A DNA stretch of 64,000 nt, taken from Pseudomonadota bacterium (GTDB lineage: Bacteria > Pseudomonadota > Alphaproteobacteria > Caulobacterales > Caulobacteraceae). The stretch covers positions 62,001 through 126,000 of the forward strand of contig JAFECT010000002.1 of the NCBI GenBank assembly GCA_018241995.1, in the 5' to 3' direction. The translations under genes were made by a program, and so were the position numbers. Shown in pieces: positions 24,708 through 58,871 of the stretch (positions are counted from its first letter, which is position 1; every line of letters starts with the position of its first letter). Under the pieces are notes generated by a model that saw only the letters and a program-made list of their open reading frames with translations, did no database searches and was not told the DNA's origin.

Positions 24708-25364
24708 TTGAAACGCTCTTCCAAGACCCTGCTCGCCCTGGCCGCCGTCGCCACCGTGTTCGGCGCGCCGCTGCCGACGGCCGTGCAGGCGGCGCCCGCG
24801 GCGCTTTCGCCCGAGAACCAGGCCCTGGTGGCCAAGGCCTCGACCTATCTGCAGGGACTGAACCAGGCCGAGGGCCGGTTCGTGCAGACCGATGCGCGCG
24901 GCGGCATTTCGCAGGGCGCCTTCTACCTGAGCCGACCGGGCAAGATCCGCTTCCAGTACGAGGCGCCCTCCGGCCTGCTGGTCGTTGCGGACGGGCACAT
25001 GGTCAATGTCTGGGATCCGCGGCTGAAGAGCTTCAACGCCTATCCCCTGGGCTTCACGCCTCTGCACGTCTTCCTGGCCAAGGAGGTCCGGCTGGACCAA
25101 GGGGCTCAGATCGACCAGGTCGAGCGCACCGCCGACGGCTTTTCGATCACCGCCCGTGACAAGCGCCGCCCGCGCGACGGCGCCATAACCCTGAGCTTCT
25201 CGAATTCGCCGCTGCGGCTGAAGGAGTGGACCGTCATCGACGGCAAGGGGCAGCGCACCAAGGTGGACCTGCTGGCCTTGAAGGAGGCTTCGGGCCTGAA
25301 CCCCAAGCTTTTCCAGCTGAACAACCCCCTGCGCCCGCCCGCGAGACCCCGCGCCGGCTTGTGA
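24708..25364 (+). CDS. lolA: outer-membrane lipoprotein carrier LolA
   Basis: The 218-residue product starts at TTG 24708, five bases after a perfect GGAGG, and has a signal peptide (LKRSSKTLLALAAVATVFGAP... cleaved near VQAAPA). The mature part is a LolA beta-fold: LNQAEGRFVQTDARGG, FYLSRPGKIRFQYEAP and a C-terminal WTVIDGKGQRTKVDL. LolA ferries lipoproteins across the periplasm to LolB. An ATG at 24543 would overlap ftsK and lose the signal peptide. It is 97 bases after ftsK. Confidence 0.9.
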   Translation: MKRSSKTLLALAAVATVFGAPLPTAVQAAPAALSPENQALVAKASTYLQGLNQAEGRFVQTDARGGISQGAFYLSRPGKIRFQYEAPSGLLVVADGHMVNVWDPRLKSFNAYPLGFTPLHVFLAKEVRLDQGAQIDQVERTADGFSITARDKRRPRDGAITLSFSNSPLRLKEWTVIDGKGQRTKVDLLALKEASGLNPKLFQLNNPLRPPARPRAGL

Positions 25365-25436: not shown

Positions 25437-25553
25437 AGGCGTTCGGCGGCGGTCGAGCGCCTCCCCTGCCGGTTCTATCCCCTCCCGGCGGCGGCGTGAG
25501 AGACGATCCTCCAAGCGCCCGGCTCGATCCTCCCGAGCCGGGCGCCCTTTTTT
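25437..25553 (+). ncRNA. candidate small RNA with C-rich loops, lolA-xth gap
   Basis: The 204-base gap between lolA and xth contains three consecutive stem-loops. Hairpin 1 pairs 25437-25445 with 25454-25462. Hairpin 2 pairs 25468-25472 with 25485-25489 and has a pyrimidine loop with CCCCTC. Hairpin 3 is a 12-bp terminator stem (25515-25526 with 25534-25545) with loop ATCCTCC and a T-tract. GATCCTCC occurs twice, once unpaired and once in the last loop. TTGAAC at 25402-25407, 17 bases before CATTTT, is a weak promoter candidate that would start the RNA near 25437. It could instead be the lolA 3' end or xth leader. No named RNA family was recognised. Confidence 0.55.
25515..25553 (+). terminator. 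intrinsic terminator upstream of xth
   Basis: A perfect 12-bp stem, GCGCCCGGCTCG with CGAGCCGGGCGC, encloses a 7-base loop ATCCTCC and is followed by CC and six T residues at 25548-25553. It ends only 15 bases before the xth start codon, so it must end an upstream transcript (lolA or the candidate RNA) rather than belong to xth. Confidence 0.9.
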
Positions 25554-25568
25554 GTGTTGTAAGGCGCT

Positions 25569-26375
25569 ATGCGACTGCGAATCGCCACGTGGAATGTGAA
25601 TTCCGTGCGCCTGCGCGCCGAGCAGGTGGCCCGTTTCGTCGACGAGCAGGCCCCTGACGTCCTATGCATGCAGGAGATCAAGTGCCGCGAGGGCGAGTTC
25701 CCGGCCCAGGCCTTCATCGACTGCGGCCTGCCGCACCTGCGCATCAAGGGCCAGAAGGGCTGGCACGGGGTCGCCATCGCCTCGCGCCTGCCGATCGAGG
25801 ATGCGCCGACCATCGAGGCCTGCCGCAACGGTCACGCCCGCTGCGTCTCGGCCAAGGTGGCCGGGGTCGAGATCCAGAATTTCTACATCCCGGCCGGCGG
25901 CGATGTCCCCGACCGCGAGCTGAACGAGAAATTCGATCACAAGCTGGACTTCTACGAGCGCCTGACCGCGGAAACGGCGCAGCGCGACCCCAAGGCGCCC
26001 CTGATCATCACCGGCGACCTGAACGTGGCGCCCGGCGAGTACGACGTCTGGAACCACCGCTACATGTCGAAGATCGTCAGCCACACCCCGATCGAGATCG
26101 AGGCGATGGAGAAGCTGAAGGCGTCGCTGGCCTTTACCGACCTGGTGCGGGAGGCGATCCCTGACCCGCAGAAGCTGTTTTCGTGGTGGAGCTATCGCTC
26201 CGCCGACTTTCGCGCCTCGAACCGCGGCCTGAGGCTCGACCACCTGTGGGCGTCGCCGGGCCTGGTCCCCGCGGCGACCCGCAACGGCAAGGTCGAAGCC
26301 CGCGTGCACGACGACGTGCGCGAATGGGAACGCCCCTCGGACCACGCCCCGGTCAGCGCGGATCTCTATCTCTAG
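25569..26375 (+). CDS. xth: exodeoxyribonuclease III
   Basis: This is the base-excision-repair AP endonuclease and 3'-5' exonuclease. The 268-residue protein shows the endonuclease/exonuclease/phosphatase fold with WNVNSVRLR near residue 9, the metal ligand Glu in MQEIKC near 35, GDLNVAPGEYD near 152, LRLDHLW near 228 and the catalytic SDHAPV near 258. An AAGG lies seven bases before ATG 25569. Its TAG stop overlaps the stop of the convergent cenR in CTAG at 26372-26375. Confidence 0.96.
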   Translation: MRLRIATWNVNSVRLRAEQVARFVDEQAPDVLCMQEIKCREGEFPAQAFIDCGLPHLRIKGQKGWHGVAIASRLPIEDAPTIEACRNGHARCVSAKVAGVEIQNFYIPAGGDVPDRELNEKFDHKLDFYERLTAETAQRDPKAPLIITGDLNVAPGEYDVWNHRYMSKIVSHTPIEIEAMEKLKASLAFTDLVREAIPDPQKLFSWWSYRSADFRASNRGLRLDHLWASPGLVPAATRNGKVEARVHDDVREWERPSDHAPVSADLYL

Positions 26376-52512: not shown

Positions 52513-53619
52513 ATGAGCTCCGATACCAGCCGCAATGCGCTCGTCGTCATCGCCGTGGTCGCCGGGGGCGCGGCCCTCTACTGGCTGCGCGACATCCTCA
52601 CGCCCCTGGCGCTGGCTGCCTTCCTGCTCATCATGATCGACGGGCTGGCGCGGTTGATCAGCCGCTTCGCGCCCAAGGCGCCGGTCTGGCTTCCACTGAC
52701 CGGAGCCATAGGCGTCATCGTCCTGACCTTCATGGTCTCCCTGTGGGTGATGGTGAACGGCGGGCGCAGCTTCGTGGGCGAGATGTCGGGCATGCACGCC
52801 CGCGCCAACGTGATCATCGCCGATATCGCGGGCCGCCTGCACCTGGGCGTGGCCCCCAGCCTGGACGAGATGCTGACCCATCTGGATCCGCAGAAGTACG
52901 CGGGCCCGATGCTGAACGGCATGCAGGGCATCGTCTCCAGCGCCTTCTTCGTCCTGATCTATCTCGGCTTTCTGATCGCCTCGCGCAGCGCCTTCGGCAA
53001 GAAGATCGTGGCCCTGTTCCCGACGCGCGGGGAGCGCGGCGAGGCCAAGCGCATCTTCGATCGCATCCGCGAAGGGGTGGAGAGCTATGTCTGGGTCCAG
53101 ACCGTGCTGGGCCTGCTGATCGCGGTCCTGGCCTGGGCGGTCATGGAGGCGGTGGGGCTGAACAACGCCCTGTTCTGGGCCTTTGTTATCTTCGTCACCG
53201 GCTACATCCCGATCGTCGGCGGGGCCATCGCCGTGGTCGCCCCGCCCCTATTCCTTCTGGTCGAGCCGGACTCCCAGCTCTGGAAGGCCGGGGTGCTGTT
53301 CGTGGCGCTGGAGGTGATCCTGTTCGTGGTCGGCAATGTGCTGCTGCCGCGGATGCAGGCCAAGAGCATGAATATCGACCCGGTGGTGGTGCTGCTGTCC
53401 CTGGCCTTCTGGGGCGCGCTCTGGGGATTGACCGGCGCCTTCCTGTCCACACCCCTGACAGTGATCGTCATGGCGGTGCTGGCCGAGTTCAAGGGTTCGC
53501 GCTGGATCGCCGTGCTGCTTTCGGGCGACGGCAAGCCCTATCCAATGGAGGATCAGGGTTCGGAGTCCCCGCCGCCGCCGAAGAAGCCACGGCGAAGGCG
53601 CGCTCCAGCCGCGGCGTGA
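52513..53619 (+). CDS. AI-2E family transporter (PerM-like)
   Basis: The 368-residue permease has about eight membrane helices, starting ALVVIAVVAGGAALYWLRDIL, with the family signature block VIFVTGYIPIVGGAIAVVAPPL near residue 215 and NVLLPRMQAKSMNIDPVVVLLSL near 275, and a basic proline-rich C-tail (PPPKKPRRRRAP). The name is historic; export of AI-2 or another small molecule is not implied. It is 31 bases after mltA. Confidence 0.92.
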   Translation: MSSDTSRNALVVIAVVAGGAALYWLRDILTPLALAAFLLIMIDGLARLISRFAPKAPVWLPLTGAIGVIVLTFMVSLWVMVNGGRSFVGEMSGMHARANVIIADIAGRLHLGVAPSLDEMLTHLDPQKYAGPMLNGMQGIVSSAFFVLIYLGFLIASRSAFGKKIVALFPTRGERGEAKRIFDRIREGVESYVWVQTVLGLLIAVLAWAVMEAVGLNNALFWAFVIFVTGYIPIVGGAIAVVAPPLFLLVEPDSQLWKAGVLFVALEVILFVVGNVLLPRMQAKSMNIDPVVVLLSLAFWGALWGLTGAFLSTPLTVIVMAVLAEFKGSRWIAVLLSGDGKPYPMEDQGSESPPPPKKPRRRRAPAAA

Positions 53620-53655: not shown

Positions 53656-53684
53656 CTTACATTCGCGTTTCGCATTCCTATCTT
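53656..53684 (+). promoter_or_regulatory. possible promoter of the triple-hairpin RNA
   Basis: CTTACA at 53656-53661 and TATCTT at 53679-53684 are 17 bases apart and each match the general -35/-10 hexamers at 4 of 6. The start would be near 53690, three bases before hairpin 1. Weak on its own; the fit with the RNA's structure is what makes it worth noting. Confidence 0.35.
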
Positions 53685-53690
53685 GGGTCT

Positions 53691-53850
53691 GACCGGTGAT
53701 CCTCCCCCCCGACACCGGCCCCAAGGCGCCCGCCGCCCCGTCCCCCAGCAGTCGGCGAGCGCTAACATAGGAGTCCTCCCGCTCCCCCCTCGGGCGGACT
53801 CGAACATAGCCGCCGGACGCCCTCCCCCCGCGTCCGGCGGTTTTGTTTTT
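53691..53850 (+). ncRNA. candidate small RNA: three stem-loops with C-rich anti-SD loops
   Basis: Hairpin 1 pairs 53693-53698 with 53713-53718 around a 14-base loop containing CCTCCCCCCC. Hairpin 2 pairs 53771-53781 with 53791-53801 (ten pairs, one mismatch) around CTCCCCCCT. Hairpin 3 pairs 53810-53820 with 53830-53840 (perfect 11 bp) around CCTCCCCCC and is followed by TTTTGTTTTT. AACATAG precedes both hairpins 2 and 3. The region has no reading frame and lies between the AI-2E gene and gdhZ. Loops of CCUCC type can pair with Shine-Dalgarno sequences, as in several alphaproteobacterial regulatory RNAs. I cannot name it; a gdhZ leader with an attenuator is the main alternative. Confidence 0.7.
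53810..53850 (+). terminator. intrinsic terminator of the triple-hairpin RNA
   Basis: A perfect 11-bp GC-rich stem (CCGCCGGACGC with GCGTCCGGCGG), nine-base loop and TTTTGTTTTT at 53841-53850. It lies about 150 bases before the gdhZ start, so it must end an upstream transcript or attenuate gdhZ. Confidence 0.92.
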
Positions 53851-53871: not shown

Positions 53872-53929
53872 CCCGACCGATCGGGCGGTTTTTCTGAGCC
53901 CCACGGTTCCAACCGGAACGGAAGCGGGG
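53872..53929. other. further hairpins before gdhZ
   Basis: CCCGA (53872-53876) and TCGGG (53881-53885) can pair and are followed by five T residues at 53889-53893. Then GTTCC (53906-53910) and GGAAC (53915-53919) pair inside an outer CCCC/GGGG pair (53899-53902 with 53926-53929). They could be a second weak terminator and an operator or leader hairpin for gdhZ. No clear promoter for gdhZ is seen in 53851-54002. Confidence 0.35.
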
Positions 53930-54002
53930 TAGCAGGACGGCACGGTTGATCCTTCGCGCGGCCGGTCTAGGCTCGCTGCGGACATTCGGGGAACTAGAGT
54001 TC

Positions 54003-57000
54003 ATGGACGGCGCCGGCGCTCCGCAAACCCTGACTATCGATACCTTGAAGAAGGCCTTCGCCCAGGCGCTGGGACGGCCCGGGGCGACGGAGCTGGACCG
54101 GCTCGAACATTCCTTCCTCGAACAGGCTCTGGCGGACTACGTCGCCGACGAAACCCCGGAACTGAGCCCCGAGGACTTCGCCGCGGTCCTGGCCGACTTC
54201 TGGAAATACGGCGAGGTGCGCGAAGGCGGGACCGGCGCCCTGATCCGTGTGCATCGCGGCGAGGGCGCGGGCGGCAGGCCCCTGAACTACGACCTTTTGG
54301 AGATCGTGCAGGACGACGCGCCCTTCCTGGTCGACAGCGTCATGGGCGAGCTGGGCGAGCAGGGCGTCTCGGTGCGCGCCATGTTCCACCCGGTGCTGAC
54401 CCTGGAGCGCTTTGGCCAAGGCCTGCGCCGGCCGCAGGGCTCCAGCCACCGCGAGTCCACCATCCTGGTCGTGCTCGACGCCCTGACCGAGGACCAGCGC
54501 AACGCCGTAGCCGAGGGCGTGCGCCAGACCCTGGCCGACGTCCGCATGGCGGTGGACGACTTCAAGCCCATGGAACAGATGATGGCGCGCGCCATCGCCG
54601 ACCTGGAAAAGGGCGTGCCGGGCCGCGACGCCGCCGAGGTGGCGGAAGACATCGCCTTCCTGCGCTGGCTGCAGGCCGACCGCTTCGTGTTCCTGGGCGC
54701 GCGCAACTACGAGTTCCCGCGCACCACCGACGGCGCCTACGAGCCGGAAGAGCCCATGCCCCAGACCGAGCAGGCGCTGGGCGTGTTGCGCGACCCCAAC
54801 CGGCCGGTGCTGCGCCGCGCCCACGAACCGGCGGTGCTGACGGCCCAGATCCGCAAGCAGCTCGACCTCGGCGAGCCGGTGACGGTCGCCAAGTCGAACC
54901 TGAAGTCGCGCGTCCATCGCCGCGTGCACATGGACTATGTGGGCGTGCGCCGCTTCGGTCCGGACGGGAAGCCCGCGGGCGAAATCCGCTTCGTGGGCCT
55001 GTTCACCGCCGAGGCCTACGACCAGACCGCATCGGATGTGCCGCTGATCCGCAAGAAGGTGGCGGGCGTGCTACGCCGCGCGGCCTATGCGCCGGGCAGC
55101 CACAACGAGAAGCGCCTGAAGAACATCGTCGAGAACTATCCGCGCGACGAGCTCTTCCAGATCACCGAAGACGACCTGCTACGCATCTCCACCGGCATCC
55201 TGCACCTGTTCGACCGGCCGCGCGTCAAGCTGTTCATCCGCAAGGACCCGTTCGACCGCTTCGTCTCGGTGCTGCTCTACGTGCCGCGCGAGCGCTACGA
55301 TTCCGGCGTGCGCGAGCGGGCCGGCCAGATCATGGCCAAGGCCTATTCGGGCCGCATCTCGGCCTACTATCCGCAGCTGTCGAACACGCCGCTGACGCGG
55401 GTGCACTACATCATCGCCGTCACGCCGGGCGAGCACGCCGACCCCGATCCGATCGAACTGGAGCGCCAAGTCGCCGAGACAGCGCGCAGCTGGCCCGACC
55501 TGTTCGTCGACGCCGCCCGTATCGCCGGGGTGAACGAGGCCGAGCGCACCGTGCTGGGCCAGAAGTGGGCGCCGGCCTTCCCGATCGCCTATCGCGAACG
55601 CTATCCGATCTCCGAGGCCCTGACCGATCTGGCCCAGTTCTCGCGCCTGGGCGAGGGCCGCATCTGGGTGCGCGCCTTCCGCACCACCGAGGACACCAAC
55701 CTCCAGTTCCGCTTCAAGCTCTACCGCCGGGGCCATCCGGTGGCCCTGGCCGACGTGCTGCCGATCCTGGACCACATGGGTCTGAAGGGGCTGGAAGAAT
55801 ACGCTTACGCCGTCCGCCCCGAGGGTGAGGAGCCGGTGTGGATCCACGAATTCCTGCTGGAAGACCCGCGCGGCGCCCAGCTGGTGTTCAAGGACGTGAA
55901 GGACCCGTTCGAGGAGGCCTTCGTCGCCGCCTGGACCGGCCGCACCGAGAGCGACGGCTTCAACCGCCTGGTGATGGAGCTCGGCATCCACTGGCGCGAG
56001 GCCGCCCTGGTGCGCGCCTTCGCCCGCTACCGCGCCCAGTCGGGCCTGGACCCCAGCCAGGCGGTGCAGGAAGCGGCCGTGCGCGACCATCCCGAGGTCA
56101 CGCGCCTGCTGCTGGCCTTCTTCCACGCCAAGTTCGATCCGCGCACTGCCGATACGGCCGAGGCCCGGGTCAAGCGCGCCGAGGACCTGTTCAAGCAGAT
56201 CCAGGACGCCCTGCAATCGGTCACCAGCCTGGACGACGACCGGGTGCTGCGCCGCCTGGCACTGCTGATCCAGGCGATGAAGCGCACCAACTACTATCAG
56301 GCCGGCGCCGACGGTCAGCCCAAACCCTATATCTCCTTCAAGGTGGCCAGCCGCGAGATCGCGGACCTGCCCCTGCCCAAGCCCTATCGCGAGATCTTCG
56401 TCTGGGCGCCCTATGTCGAGGGCGTGCACCTGCGCTTTGGCCCGGTCGCGCGCGGCGGCCTGCGCTGGTCGGACCGGCGCGATGACTTCCGCACCGAGGT
56501 GCTGGGCCTGGTAAAGGCGCAGCAGGTCAAGAACGCGGTGATCGTGCCGGTGGGCTCCAAGGGCGGCTTCTATCCCAAGGCCCTGCCCCGAGGCGGCACG
56601 CCCGACGAGGTCCGCGCCGAGGGCGTGCGCGCCTACAAGACCTTCCTGGCGGGCCTGCTCGACATCACCGACAACCTGGACGCCGATGGCAAGGTGGTGC
56701 GCCCGCCCATGGTCGTCGCCTGGGACCAGGAAGACCCCTACCTCGTCGTCGCCGCCGACAAGGGCACGGCGACCTTCTCCGACATCGCCAACGGCGTCTC
56801 CGCAGACTACGGCTTCTGGCTGGGTGATGCGTTCGCCTCAGGCGGCTCGCAGGGCTACGACCACAAGGCCATGGGCATCACCGCCCGCGGCGCCTGGGAA
56901 GCGGTGAAGCGCCACTTCCGCGAGATGGGCAAGGACATCCAGACCGAACCCTTCACCTGCGTCGGTGTCGGCGACATGTCTGGCGACGTCTTCGGCAACG

Positions 57001-58871
57001 GCATGCTGCTGTCGAAGGCCACCAAGCTGGTCGCCGCCTTCGACCACCGCGACATCTTCCTCGACCCCAATCCGGACCCTGAAACCAGCTGGAATGAGCG
57101 AGCGCGCATGTTCGCCCTGCCGCGCTCCTCCTGGCAAGACTACGACAGGAGCCGGATCTCCCCGGGCGGCGGCGTCTATTCGCGCTCGCTGAAGACGATC
57201 CCCATCTCGCCGGAGGTCAAGGCGGCGCTGGGCGTCGACGCCGACGAGATGGCGCCGACAGACCTGATGCGGGCGATCCTGAAGTCCAAGTGCGAACTGC
57301 TCTACTTCGGCGGCATCGGCACCTATCTGAAGGCCCGTTTCGAGACCGACCTGCAGGTCGGCGACAAGGCCAACGACGCGGTGCGCATCAACGCCGACGA
57401 ACTGCGCTGCCTGGTTGTCGGCGAGGGCGCGAACCTGGGCGCCACCCAGGCCGGCCGGATCGCCTTCGCGCGGCTGGGCGGACGCATCAACACCGACGCC
57501 ATCGACAACTCGGCCGGCGTCGACACCTCGGACCACGAGGTCAACATTAAGATCCTGACCGGCGCCTTGGAGCGTCAGAGCAAGATGGACCGGGAGGGCC
57601 GCAACGCGCTCCTGGCCTCGATGACCGAGGAGGTCGGCCACCACGTGCTCGAGCACAACTACGACCAGACCCTGTGCCTGACGCTGCAGCAGGCGACGGC
57701 GCCCTACGACCTGGACGCCCAGGCGCGGTTCATGGCGTGGCTGGAGCATCACGGTAAGCTCGACCGCCAGGTGGAAGGCCTGCCCTCGCCCGCGGCCATC
57801 GGCGACCTCGCCGCCCAGGGCCTGGGCCTGACCCGCCCGGAGCTGGCGGTGATCACCGCCTACGCCAAGATCGACCTGTCGGAGGACATCGTCGCCTCCC
57901 AGGCGCCCGAGGACGCCTTCTTCGAGCGGACGCTCGTGACCTATTTCCCCGAGCCGATGCGTCAGTTCGAGGACGAGATGCGTCGCCACCGGCTGCGCCG
58001 CGAGATCATCGCCACGGTCCTGGCCAACGAGATCGTCAACATGACCGGCGCCACCTTCCCGGTGCGCCTGCGGGCTTCCGCGGAGTGCGACACCACCGCC
58101 CTGGTCATCGCCTTCGAGGCCGCGCGCCAGGTGTTCCGCCTGAACGAGGCCTGGGCTGCGGTCTCGGCGCTGGACCTGAAGATTCCGTCGGAGGCCCAGA
58201 TCGCGCTCTATCGCGAAATCTCGGTGGTGCTGCGCCGCCAGACCTTCTGGCTGGCCCGCCGCGCGGCGCGGGGTTCGACCTCGGTCCAGGCCCTGATCGA
58301 GGCCTATCGCCCGGCCGCCGACGCCCTGCGCAGCGAAGGCCCCGGAGGCCTCTCGGACTTCGAACAGGCGCAGGTGCGGCGTCGCGCCGAGGCCTTCGCC
58401 GCCGCCGGCGCGCCGCAGGACCTGGCGATGGCCGTCGCCGCCCTCAGGCCCCTGACCGCCACCACCGACATCTCGGACCTGGCGCGCAAGGTGAACTGGC
58501 CGGTGGAATCGGCCGCGCGCCTGTACCACCAGGTCGGCGCCGCCTTCGACTTCGACCGCCTGAGGGGCGCGGCCGGATCGCTCAGTTCCAGCGACCACTA
58601 CGAGCGCATGGCCGTGCGCCGCCTGATCGCCGACTTCCTGACCGAGCAGGCGGCCCTGACCCAGGCCATCGCGCGCGCTTCGGCCCCCAGCGCCGGCGCC
58701 AGCGTCCAGGCCGCACAGGCCGCGATCCGCGGCTTCATCGGCGAGCGCGCGCAGGCGGTCGAGGCGGTGCGGCGCACGGTTGACGAGATCGAATCCGCCG
58801 GCGCCGGCTGGAGCTTCGCCAAGCTGACCATCGCCAATGCGGCGCTCAGGGAGTTCGCGGCCTCGGCCTAG
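54003..58871 (+). CDS. gdhZ: NAD-dependent glutamate dehydrogenase, 180-kDa class
   Basis: This giant enzyme converts glutamate to 2-oxoglutarate and ammonia with NAD+. In Caulobacter the homologue GdhZ also helps dismantle the FtsZ ring. The 1622-residue product has a long regulatory N-terminal half with ACT-like parts (LVDSVMGELGEQGVSVRAMFHPVL), the catalytic core with RGGLRWSDRRDDFRTEV near residue 817 and KGGFYPK, the NAD loop GVGDMSGDVFGNGML near 986, and a helical C-terminal domain. ATG 54003 is chosen; the frame opens 19 codons earlier. Large antisense frames here are shadows. Confidence 0.95.
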   Translation: MDGAGAPQTLTIDTLKKAFAQALGRPGATELDRLEHSFLEQALADYVADETPELSPEDFAAVLADFWKYGEVREGGTGALIRVHRGEGAGGRPLNYDLLEIVQDDAPFLVDSVMGELGEQGVSVRAMFHPVLTLERFGQGLRRPQGSSHRESTILVVLDALTEDQRNAVAEGVRQTLADVRMAVDDFKPMEQMMARAIADLEKGVPGRDAAEVAEDIAFLRWLQADRFVFLGARNYEFPRTTDGAYEPEEPMPQTEQALGVLRDPNRPVLRRAHEPAVLTAQIRKQLDLGEPVTVAKSNLKSRVHRRVHMDYVGVRRFGPDGKPAGEIRFVGLFTAEAYDQTASDVPLIRKKVAGVLRRAAYAPGSHNEKRLKNIVENYPRDELFQITEDDLLRISTGILHLFDRPRVKLFIRKDPFDRFVSVLLYVPRERYDSGVRERAGQIMAKAYSGRISAYYPQLSNTPLTRVHYIIAVTPGEHADPDPIELERQVAETARSWPDLFVDAARIAGVNEAERTVLGQKWAPAFPIAYRERYPISEALTDLAQFSRLGEGRIWVRAFRTTEDTNLQFRFKLYRRGHPVALADVLPILDHMGLKGLEEYAYAVRPEGEEPVWIHEFLLEDPRGAQLVFKDVKDPFEEAFVAAWTGRTESDGFNRLVMELGIHWREAALVRAFARYRAQSGLDPSQAVQEAAVRDHPEVTRLLLAFFHAKFDPRTADTAEARVKRAEDLFKQIQDALQSVTSLDDDRVLRRLALLIQAMKRTNYYQAGADGQPKPYISFKVASREIADLPLPKPYREIFVWAPYVEGVHLRFGPVARGGLRWSDRRDDFRTEVLGLVKAQQVKNAVIVPVGSKGGFYPKALPRGGTPDEVRAEGVRAYKTFLAGLLDITDNLDADGKVVRPPMVVAWDQEDPYLVVAADKGTATFSDIANGVSADYGFWLGDAFASGGSQGYDHKAMGITARGAWEAVKRHFREMGKDIQTEPFTCVGVGDMSGDVFGNGMLLSKATKLVAAFDHRDIFLDPNPDPETSWNERARMFALPRSSWQDYDRSRISPGGGVYSRSLKTIPISPEVKAALGVDADEMAPTDLMRAILKSKCELLYFGGIGTYLKARFETDLQVGDKANDAVRINADELRCLVVGEGANLGATQAGRIAFARLGGRINTDAIDNSAGVDTSDHEVNIKILTGALERQSKMDREGRNALLASMTEEVGHHVLEHNYDQTLCLTLQQATAPYDLDAQARFMAWLEHHGKLDRQVEGLPSPAAIGDLAAQGLGLTRPELAVITAYAKIDLSEDIVASQAPEDAFFERTLVTYFPEPMRQFEDEMRRHRLRREIIATVLANEIVNMTGATFPVRLRASAECDTTALVIAFEAARQVFRLNEAWAAVSALDLKIPSEAQIALYREISVVLRRQTFWLARRAARGSTSVQALIEAYRPAADALRSEGPGGLSDFEQAQVRRRAEAFAAAGAPQDLAMAVAALRPLTATTDISDLARKVNWPVESAARLYHQVGAAFDFDRLRGAAGSLSSSDHYERMAVRRLIADFLTEQAALTQAIARASAPSAGASVQAAQAAIRGFIGERAQAVEAVRRTVDEIESAGAGWSFAKLTIANAALREFAASA

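Follow-up and report, generated by a model that had tools for sequence, protein, structure and literature searches.

RESULTS

Gene content and hairpin array of the permease-gdhZ interval

The window, i.e., the whole 64,000-nt stretch of Caulobacteraceae DNA analyzed here, carries an array of hairpins with C-rich loops in the gap upstream of gdhZ, where a first-pass annotation had placed a small RNA gene. The two genes flanking this gap were confirmed by Pfam (PF01594 upstream and PF05088 downstream), and the features of the locus are as follows.

52513..53619, + strand: gene of an AI-2E family transporter (permease), upstream neighbor of the array (Pfam PF01594, E 1.2e-36)
53656..53683, + strand: promoter-like site of the RNA gene, CTTACA, 16 nt, CTATCT (read by eye; similar boxes lie ahead of the array in most relatives)
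53690..53850, + strand: predicted small RNA of ~160 nt (fold; array architecture conserved 5' of gdhZ in relatives)
53693..53718, + strand: hairpin 1 (H1), CCGGTG and CACCGG forming 6 bp around the loop ATCCTCCCCCCCGA (sequence and fold)
53725..53763, + strand: hairpin 2 (H2), GGCGCCCGCCG and CGGCGAGCGCT forming 10 pairs around the loop CCCCGTCCCCCAGCAGT (fold)
53771..53801, + strand: hairpin 3 (H3), GAGTCCTCCCG and CGGGCGGACTC forming 10 pairs with one mismatch around the loop CTCCCCCCT (fold, covariation, and part of the R2 match at 53774-53850)
53810..53840, + strand: hairpin 4 (H4), terminator stem, CCGCCGGACGC and GCGTCCGGCGG forming a perfect 11 bp around the loop CCTCCCCCC (sequence, fold, and R2 match)
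53841..53850, + strand: T-tract TTTTGTTTTT, which completes an intrinsic terminator with hairpin 4 (sequence by eye)
53872..53892, + strand: second, weaker terminator-like hairpin, CCCGACCGATCGGG and then TTTTT (consensus scan only)
53946..53973, + strand: gdhZ promoter-like site, TTGATC, 16 nt, TAGGCT, lying 3' of the terminator of the RNA (by eye)
54003..58871, + strand: gdhZ, NAD-glutamate dehydrogenase of 1622 residues, downstream neighbor of the array (Pfam PF05088, E 3.1e-250)

The putative 5' end of the RNA lies 6 to 8 nt past the -10 box, and its 3' end is set by the T-tract. The promoter-like site CTTACA-16-CTATCT was left unflagged by the consensus scan, whose consensus is of the E. 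coli type. Downstream, the weaker terminator-like hairpin begins ~20 nt past the T-tract of the RNA, ahead of the gdhZ promoter-like site; a motif similar to the latter precedes gdhZ in four of the relatives' loci (L014, L064, L065, and L069).

The first-pass annotation had described three hairpins (6 bp, 10 bp with one mismatch, and a perfect 11 bp) followed by a T-tract. The T-tract and all three hairpins are located where it had put them, while its count was too low: H2 had been overlooked, and the C-loop hairpins number four. CUCCCCC is common to the loops of three of the four; the loop cores read CUCCCCC(C) and, in hairpin 2, CCGUCCCC. The folding energy of the segment 53685-53852 was -80.4 kcal/mol, compared with -60.9 +/- 4.05 in dinucleotide shuffles (z -4.8; none of 200 shuffles was as good). 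Three stricter thresholds for the stem were applied to 300 shuffles each, and none of these matched the number of separate (nonoverlapping) C-loop hairpins; at the laxest threshold, 3 of 400 shuffles did. Since both the folding energy and the hairpin count exceed those of shuffled sequences, the array is more than a chance assembly.

Conservation of the array in the Caulobacteraceae

We then read the region upstream of gdhZ in relatives. Of the loci used, 20 belong to named genomes of the Caulobacteraceae, and 26 come from a sample in which most genera are represented by one or two genomes. The same set of promoter, hairpins, and terminator was found in ~16 Caulobacteraceae genera besides that of the window, either between the AI-2E permease gene and gdhZ or adjoining one of them. 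These genera, counted by eye, include Phenylobacterium, Caulobacter, a metagenome-assembled genome labeled Brevundimonas, and genus g15, in which gdhZ is lacking. The layout consists of a CTTnAA-like box, a spacer of ~16 to 17 nt that is nearly constant across the relatives, (C)CTATCT, and three or four hairpins with mostly C-rich loops, the last of which is typically built from GCCGCCGGA and TCCGGCGGC and followed by T-rich sequence. No array lay 5' of gdhZ in the genomes sampled from three genera (g3, g16, and g21) or at the loci L030 and L031. The motif CCGTCCCC was found again in the H2 loops of five relatives (L014, L064, L069, L087, and L088). In some genera the H2 or H4 loop is not C-rich (e.g., H4 of L064 and H2 of L072), and the four loops are therefore not all needed.

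To follow the array beyond these loci, we used R2, a covariance model covering H3 and H4 in whose construction the window had no part. It ranked positions 53774-53850 first in the 64 kb, with 24.7 bits and an E value of 0.0014; an earlier model derived from Phenylobacterium (R1) recognized the window poorly (14 bits) and was dropped. Among 298 Caulobacteraceae genomes, R2 gave matches in ~97 at E <= 1e-4 and in 171 at E <= 0.01, neither of which is an exact count: weak matches (E of ~1e-3, in genus g3 and others) are often bare terminators with no permease gene or gdhZ, which makes the raw 171 too high, and the stricter filters of the wide scans also lose true copies, that of the window included. 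A scan of 289 alphaproteobacterial genomes representing 219 genera returned a single match at E <= 1e-3, which was at chance level and was a bare terminator, and the predicted RNA thus appears to be restricted to the Caulobacteraceae.

Covariation of the stems

The stem sequences differ almost wholly between genera, while the pairing and the C-rich loops are retained. In an alignment of ten Phenylobacterium arrays (A3), which covers one genus and was not fitted to the structure, pairing is seen in 97.8% of the cells and a change on both sides in seven pairs; none of 500 shuffles reached the score of this alignment, and control positions obtained by sliding gave 0 to 2. H3 is the most conserved element of the array, and across genera its C-run is kept, with the stem rewritten and seven of eight pairs changed on both sides. 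For H3 and H4 together, 44 compensated cells were counted across genera, compared with 13.5 +/- 2.7 after shuffling, and the covariation score was attained in none of 500 shuffles. This cross-genus alignment (A7) was made from hairpin segments padded by hand and, being assembled on the hairpins, leans towards the structure, which the Phenylobacterium alignment does not. The stems thus covary in relatives, as had been proposed for a check of the first-pass annotation.

Two other approaches were of less use. MAFFT by itself did not align the array correctly across genera, and from its alignment RNAalifold recovered only part of the structure. An arm-swap test (96% pairing for native arms and 56% for swapped ones) was set aside as main evidence because it is biased, the hairpins having been found by pairing.

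Comparison with known RNAs

An Rfam search of the 64 kb gave no family at or above its cutoff, which favors the earlier suggestion of a new RNA. The best subthreshold match was the alphaproteobacterial ar14 (RF02344), covering hairpins 2 to 4 with 43.7 bits. The array resembles ar14 in having hairpins with CUCC-type loops and a terminator, yet it scores below the gathering value of 58.8 and is not assigned to that family. No ar14 match was obtained in the 18 relatives' loci searched, even at E 0.05, and the window's own genome holds no second strong match, only a weaker one within the window at 25456-25550.

This weaker match falls in a second candidate small RNA of the window, at 25438-25556 on the + strand, in the gap that separates an open reading frame with its end at 25364 from an exonuclease III-like one with its start at 25569. 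The candidate has hairpins with CCCCTCCC- and ATCCTCC-type loops and a T6 terminator, folds with a z of -3.6, and is ar14-like with 28.6 bits. Part of it was matched by BLAST in 18 of 30 Caulobacteraceae genomes.

A close parallel in design is sX13 of Xanthomonas, which has stable stems with C-rich loops (4C/5C) and represses its targets independently of Hfq by means of these loops and G-rich motifs near the start codons (PMC3771888). The array shares with sX13 a series of stable stems, each capped by a C-rich loop; sX13 differs in having three stems in 115 nt, being gammaproteobacterial, and lying at another locus. The window gave no match to the sX13 family (RF02232, gathering cutoff of 50 bits) and is not a member of it; the best of the 18 relatives' loci, L073, scored 34.9 bits, again below 50. 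Since the window itself does not match, the likeness is one of design and does not imply homology.

Among the RNAs of Caulobacter crescentus, ChvR (CCNA_R0100) is Hfq independent and pairs with the chvT mRNA through two stem-loops; for one of these, the site of pairing is the ribosome-binding region (PMC6237742). It shares with the array the presence of several stem-loops but has 84 nt and three of them, lies between CCNA_00157 and recF, and is controlled by ChvI-ChvG; locus, promoter, and size rule out identity. GsrN uses a C-rich loop to pair with G-rich mRNA leaders (PMC5869019), as proposed for the array, and is likewise conserved in the Caulobacteraceae. Unlike the array, it has one main C-rich 5' loop and a general-stress sigma promoter, is usually found near ecfG/phyR, and activates katG. 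Promoters recognized by sigma-EcfG carry a GGAAC/CGTT pair, and no such pair was seen at CTTACA-16-CTATCT when the site was compared by eye with this consensus, so that GsrN was rejected by promoter as well as by locus.

The remaining alphaproteobacterial RNAs of this kind are alpha-r8 (SisA-D) and CcsR/cuckoo. SisA-D carry the anti-Shine-Dalgarno seed UUUCCUCCCU and pair with CrfA in C. crescentus (PMC12559287); unlike the loops of the array, their seed is single stranded, and they bind Hfq. CcsR1-4 form a cluster of four members (PMC10253847) and differ in being processed from the transcript of a DUF1127 gene with an RpoH promoter. Identity with CcsR/cuckoo (CIN1 locus) was rejected, as the array has no DUF1127 neighbor and is flanked by the AI-2E transporter and glutamate dehydrogenase genes instead. 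The best explanation on this comparison is that the predicted RNA would act in trans like sX13, ChvR, and GsrN from a different locus, with no kinship to them implied.

Independent RNA gene or part of a neighboring transcript

The position of the array makes it necessary to ask whether it belongs to one of the adjacent mRNAs. The hairpins could form the 5' leader of the gdhZ mRNA, acting as a cis attenuator or with a loop masking the ribosome-binding site of gdhZ itself, and the array is indeed tightly linked to gdhZ in most genera; several Phenylobacterium genomes with another upstream gene still keep the two together. In that genus (L020-L033 and L041-L063), gdhZ starts within some tens of nucleotides of hairpin 4 and the terminator has a weak T-tract, which makes read-through into gdhZ plausible there, and the RNA may serve as a gdhZ leader as well. 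A cis leader should, however, always lie 5' of gdhZ and be cotranscribed with it, and this is not the case in genus g15, where PF05088 is absent from three genomes, two of which (L103 and L104) still have the promoter, the hairpins, and the terminator behind the permease gene but no gdhZ alongside. Together with the terminal T-tract of the RNA in the window and the separate gdhZ promoter-like site ~100 nt downstream, this favors an independent RNA gene, and we regard the leader reading as unlikely. The array exists as a unit of conserved structure with a conserved promoter, independent of gdhZ.

Nor does the upstream gene account well for the array. It lies directly behind the permease stop codon, GC-rich terminator hairpins are common, and the weak R2 matches elsewhere are bare terminators, all of which would suit a mere intergenic terminator or hairpins stabilizing the 3' end of the permease mRNA, with no regulatory role; against this stand the conserved promoter between the permease gene and the hairpins, the retention of C-rich loops on rewritten stems, and several Phenylobacterium genomes that have the array with no adjoining permease gene, which together leave this reading highly improbable. 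Alternatively, the repeated C-loops might be a decoy that titrates either a G-rich regulatory RNA or a protein with affinity for C-rich RNA. Repeated loops would fit such a sponge, and in C. crescentus there is a precedent for C-rich seeds (compare SisA-D) being sponged through RNA-RNA pairing by the G/A-rich CrfA (PMC12559287). Our analysis found no candidate partner, however, the loops vary both in number and in flanking sequence, and mRNAs are the direct targets of other C-loop RNAs. We therefore think a decoy function very unlikely, and the protein sponge raised by the first-pass annotation gained no support. Having a promoter-like site and a terminator of its own as well as covarying stems, the array looks like the small RNA gene that had been proposed, and it is probably an independent, Caulobacteraceae-specific one that would be transcribed and act in trans, its C-loops pairing with and repressing G-rich ribosome-binding sites in the manner of sX13 and ChvR.

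Proposed action and potential targets

In the mechanism that we envisage for this independent RNA gene, the RNA would be transcribed from its own promoter just 3' of the permease gene and would end at the strong hairpin and T-tract. Each predicted hairpin would present a short C-rich loop able to pair with G-rich ribosome-binding sites, e.g., GGGGGAG just 5' of start codons; such pairing would usually block the initiation of translation, and several loops could act on one or more mRNAs. The earlier statement that the loops can pair with Shine-Dalgarno sequences agrees with the complementarity to G-rich ribosome-binding sites found here, which is a matter of sequence.

GGGGGAG occurs 83 times at 3 to 11 nt before ATG in the window's own genome and the reversed pattern 11 times, an excess that is partly ordinary Shine-Dalgarno sequence and is only weakly controlled for by the reversed pattern. 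Thirty of these sites (a few overlapping) were fetched, and most of them open a reading frame of more than 150 codons. The genes behind them include two for TonB-dependent receptors, one for a beta-ketoacyl synthase, and one for a uracil phosphoribosyltransferase. A more far-reaching version, which we put forward as a long shot, is that the RNA is family-wide and probably constitutive and that its up to four interchangeable anti-Shine-Dalgarno loops set a general ceiling on the translation of dozens of genes with GGGGGAG starts. It would then compete, multivalently and independently of Hfq, with the anti-Shine-Dalgarno sequence of the ribosome and would not be a regulator of a few targets.

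DISCUSSION

The first-pass annotation had called the small RNA probably new. This holds for the locus, at which no family is known to have been described, and not for the kind of RNA, which is well known from sX13, GsrN, ChvR, alpha-r8/SisA-D, and CcsR/cuckoo. The literature search turned up no paper in which CCNA_00086, CCNA_00085, or a small RNA adjacent to gdhZ is named, and no functional study. In C. crescentus, the RNA may already have a catalogue entry, though with no name. Newer RNA numbers in that species rise along the chromosome, so if gdhZ is CCNA_00086, as we take it to be, CCNA_R0098 or CCNA_R0099 could be the RNA of the array. CCNA_R0097 is found at CCNA_00027/28 and CCNA_R0100 at CCNA_00157/158 (PMC6237742), and a 5.7-fold enrichment with Hfq is reported for CCNA_R0098 (PMC11005374).

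The array would give the Caulobacteraceae a conserved family of small RNAs, not described to date, in which C-rich loops are repeated, and it is a clean case in which the loops are conserved while the stems are rewritten. Its fixed locus is easily deleted in Caulobacter, and it would permit a direct test of whether several C-loops serve several targets, a stronger repression, or redundancy.
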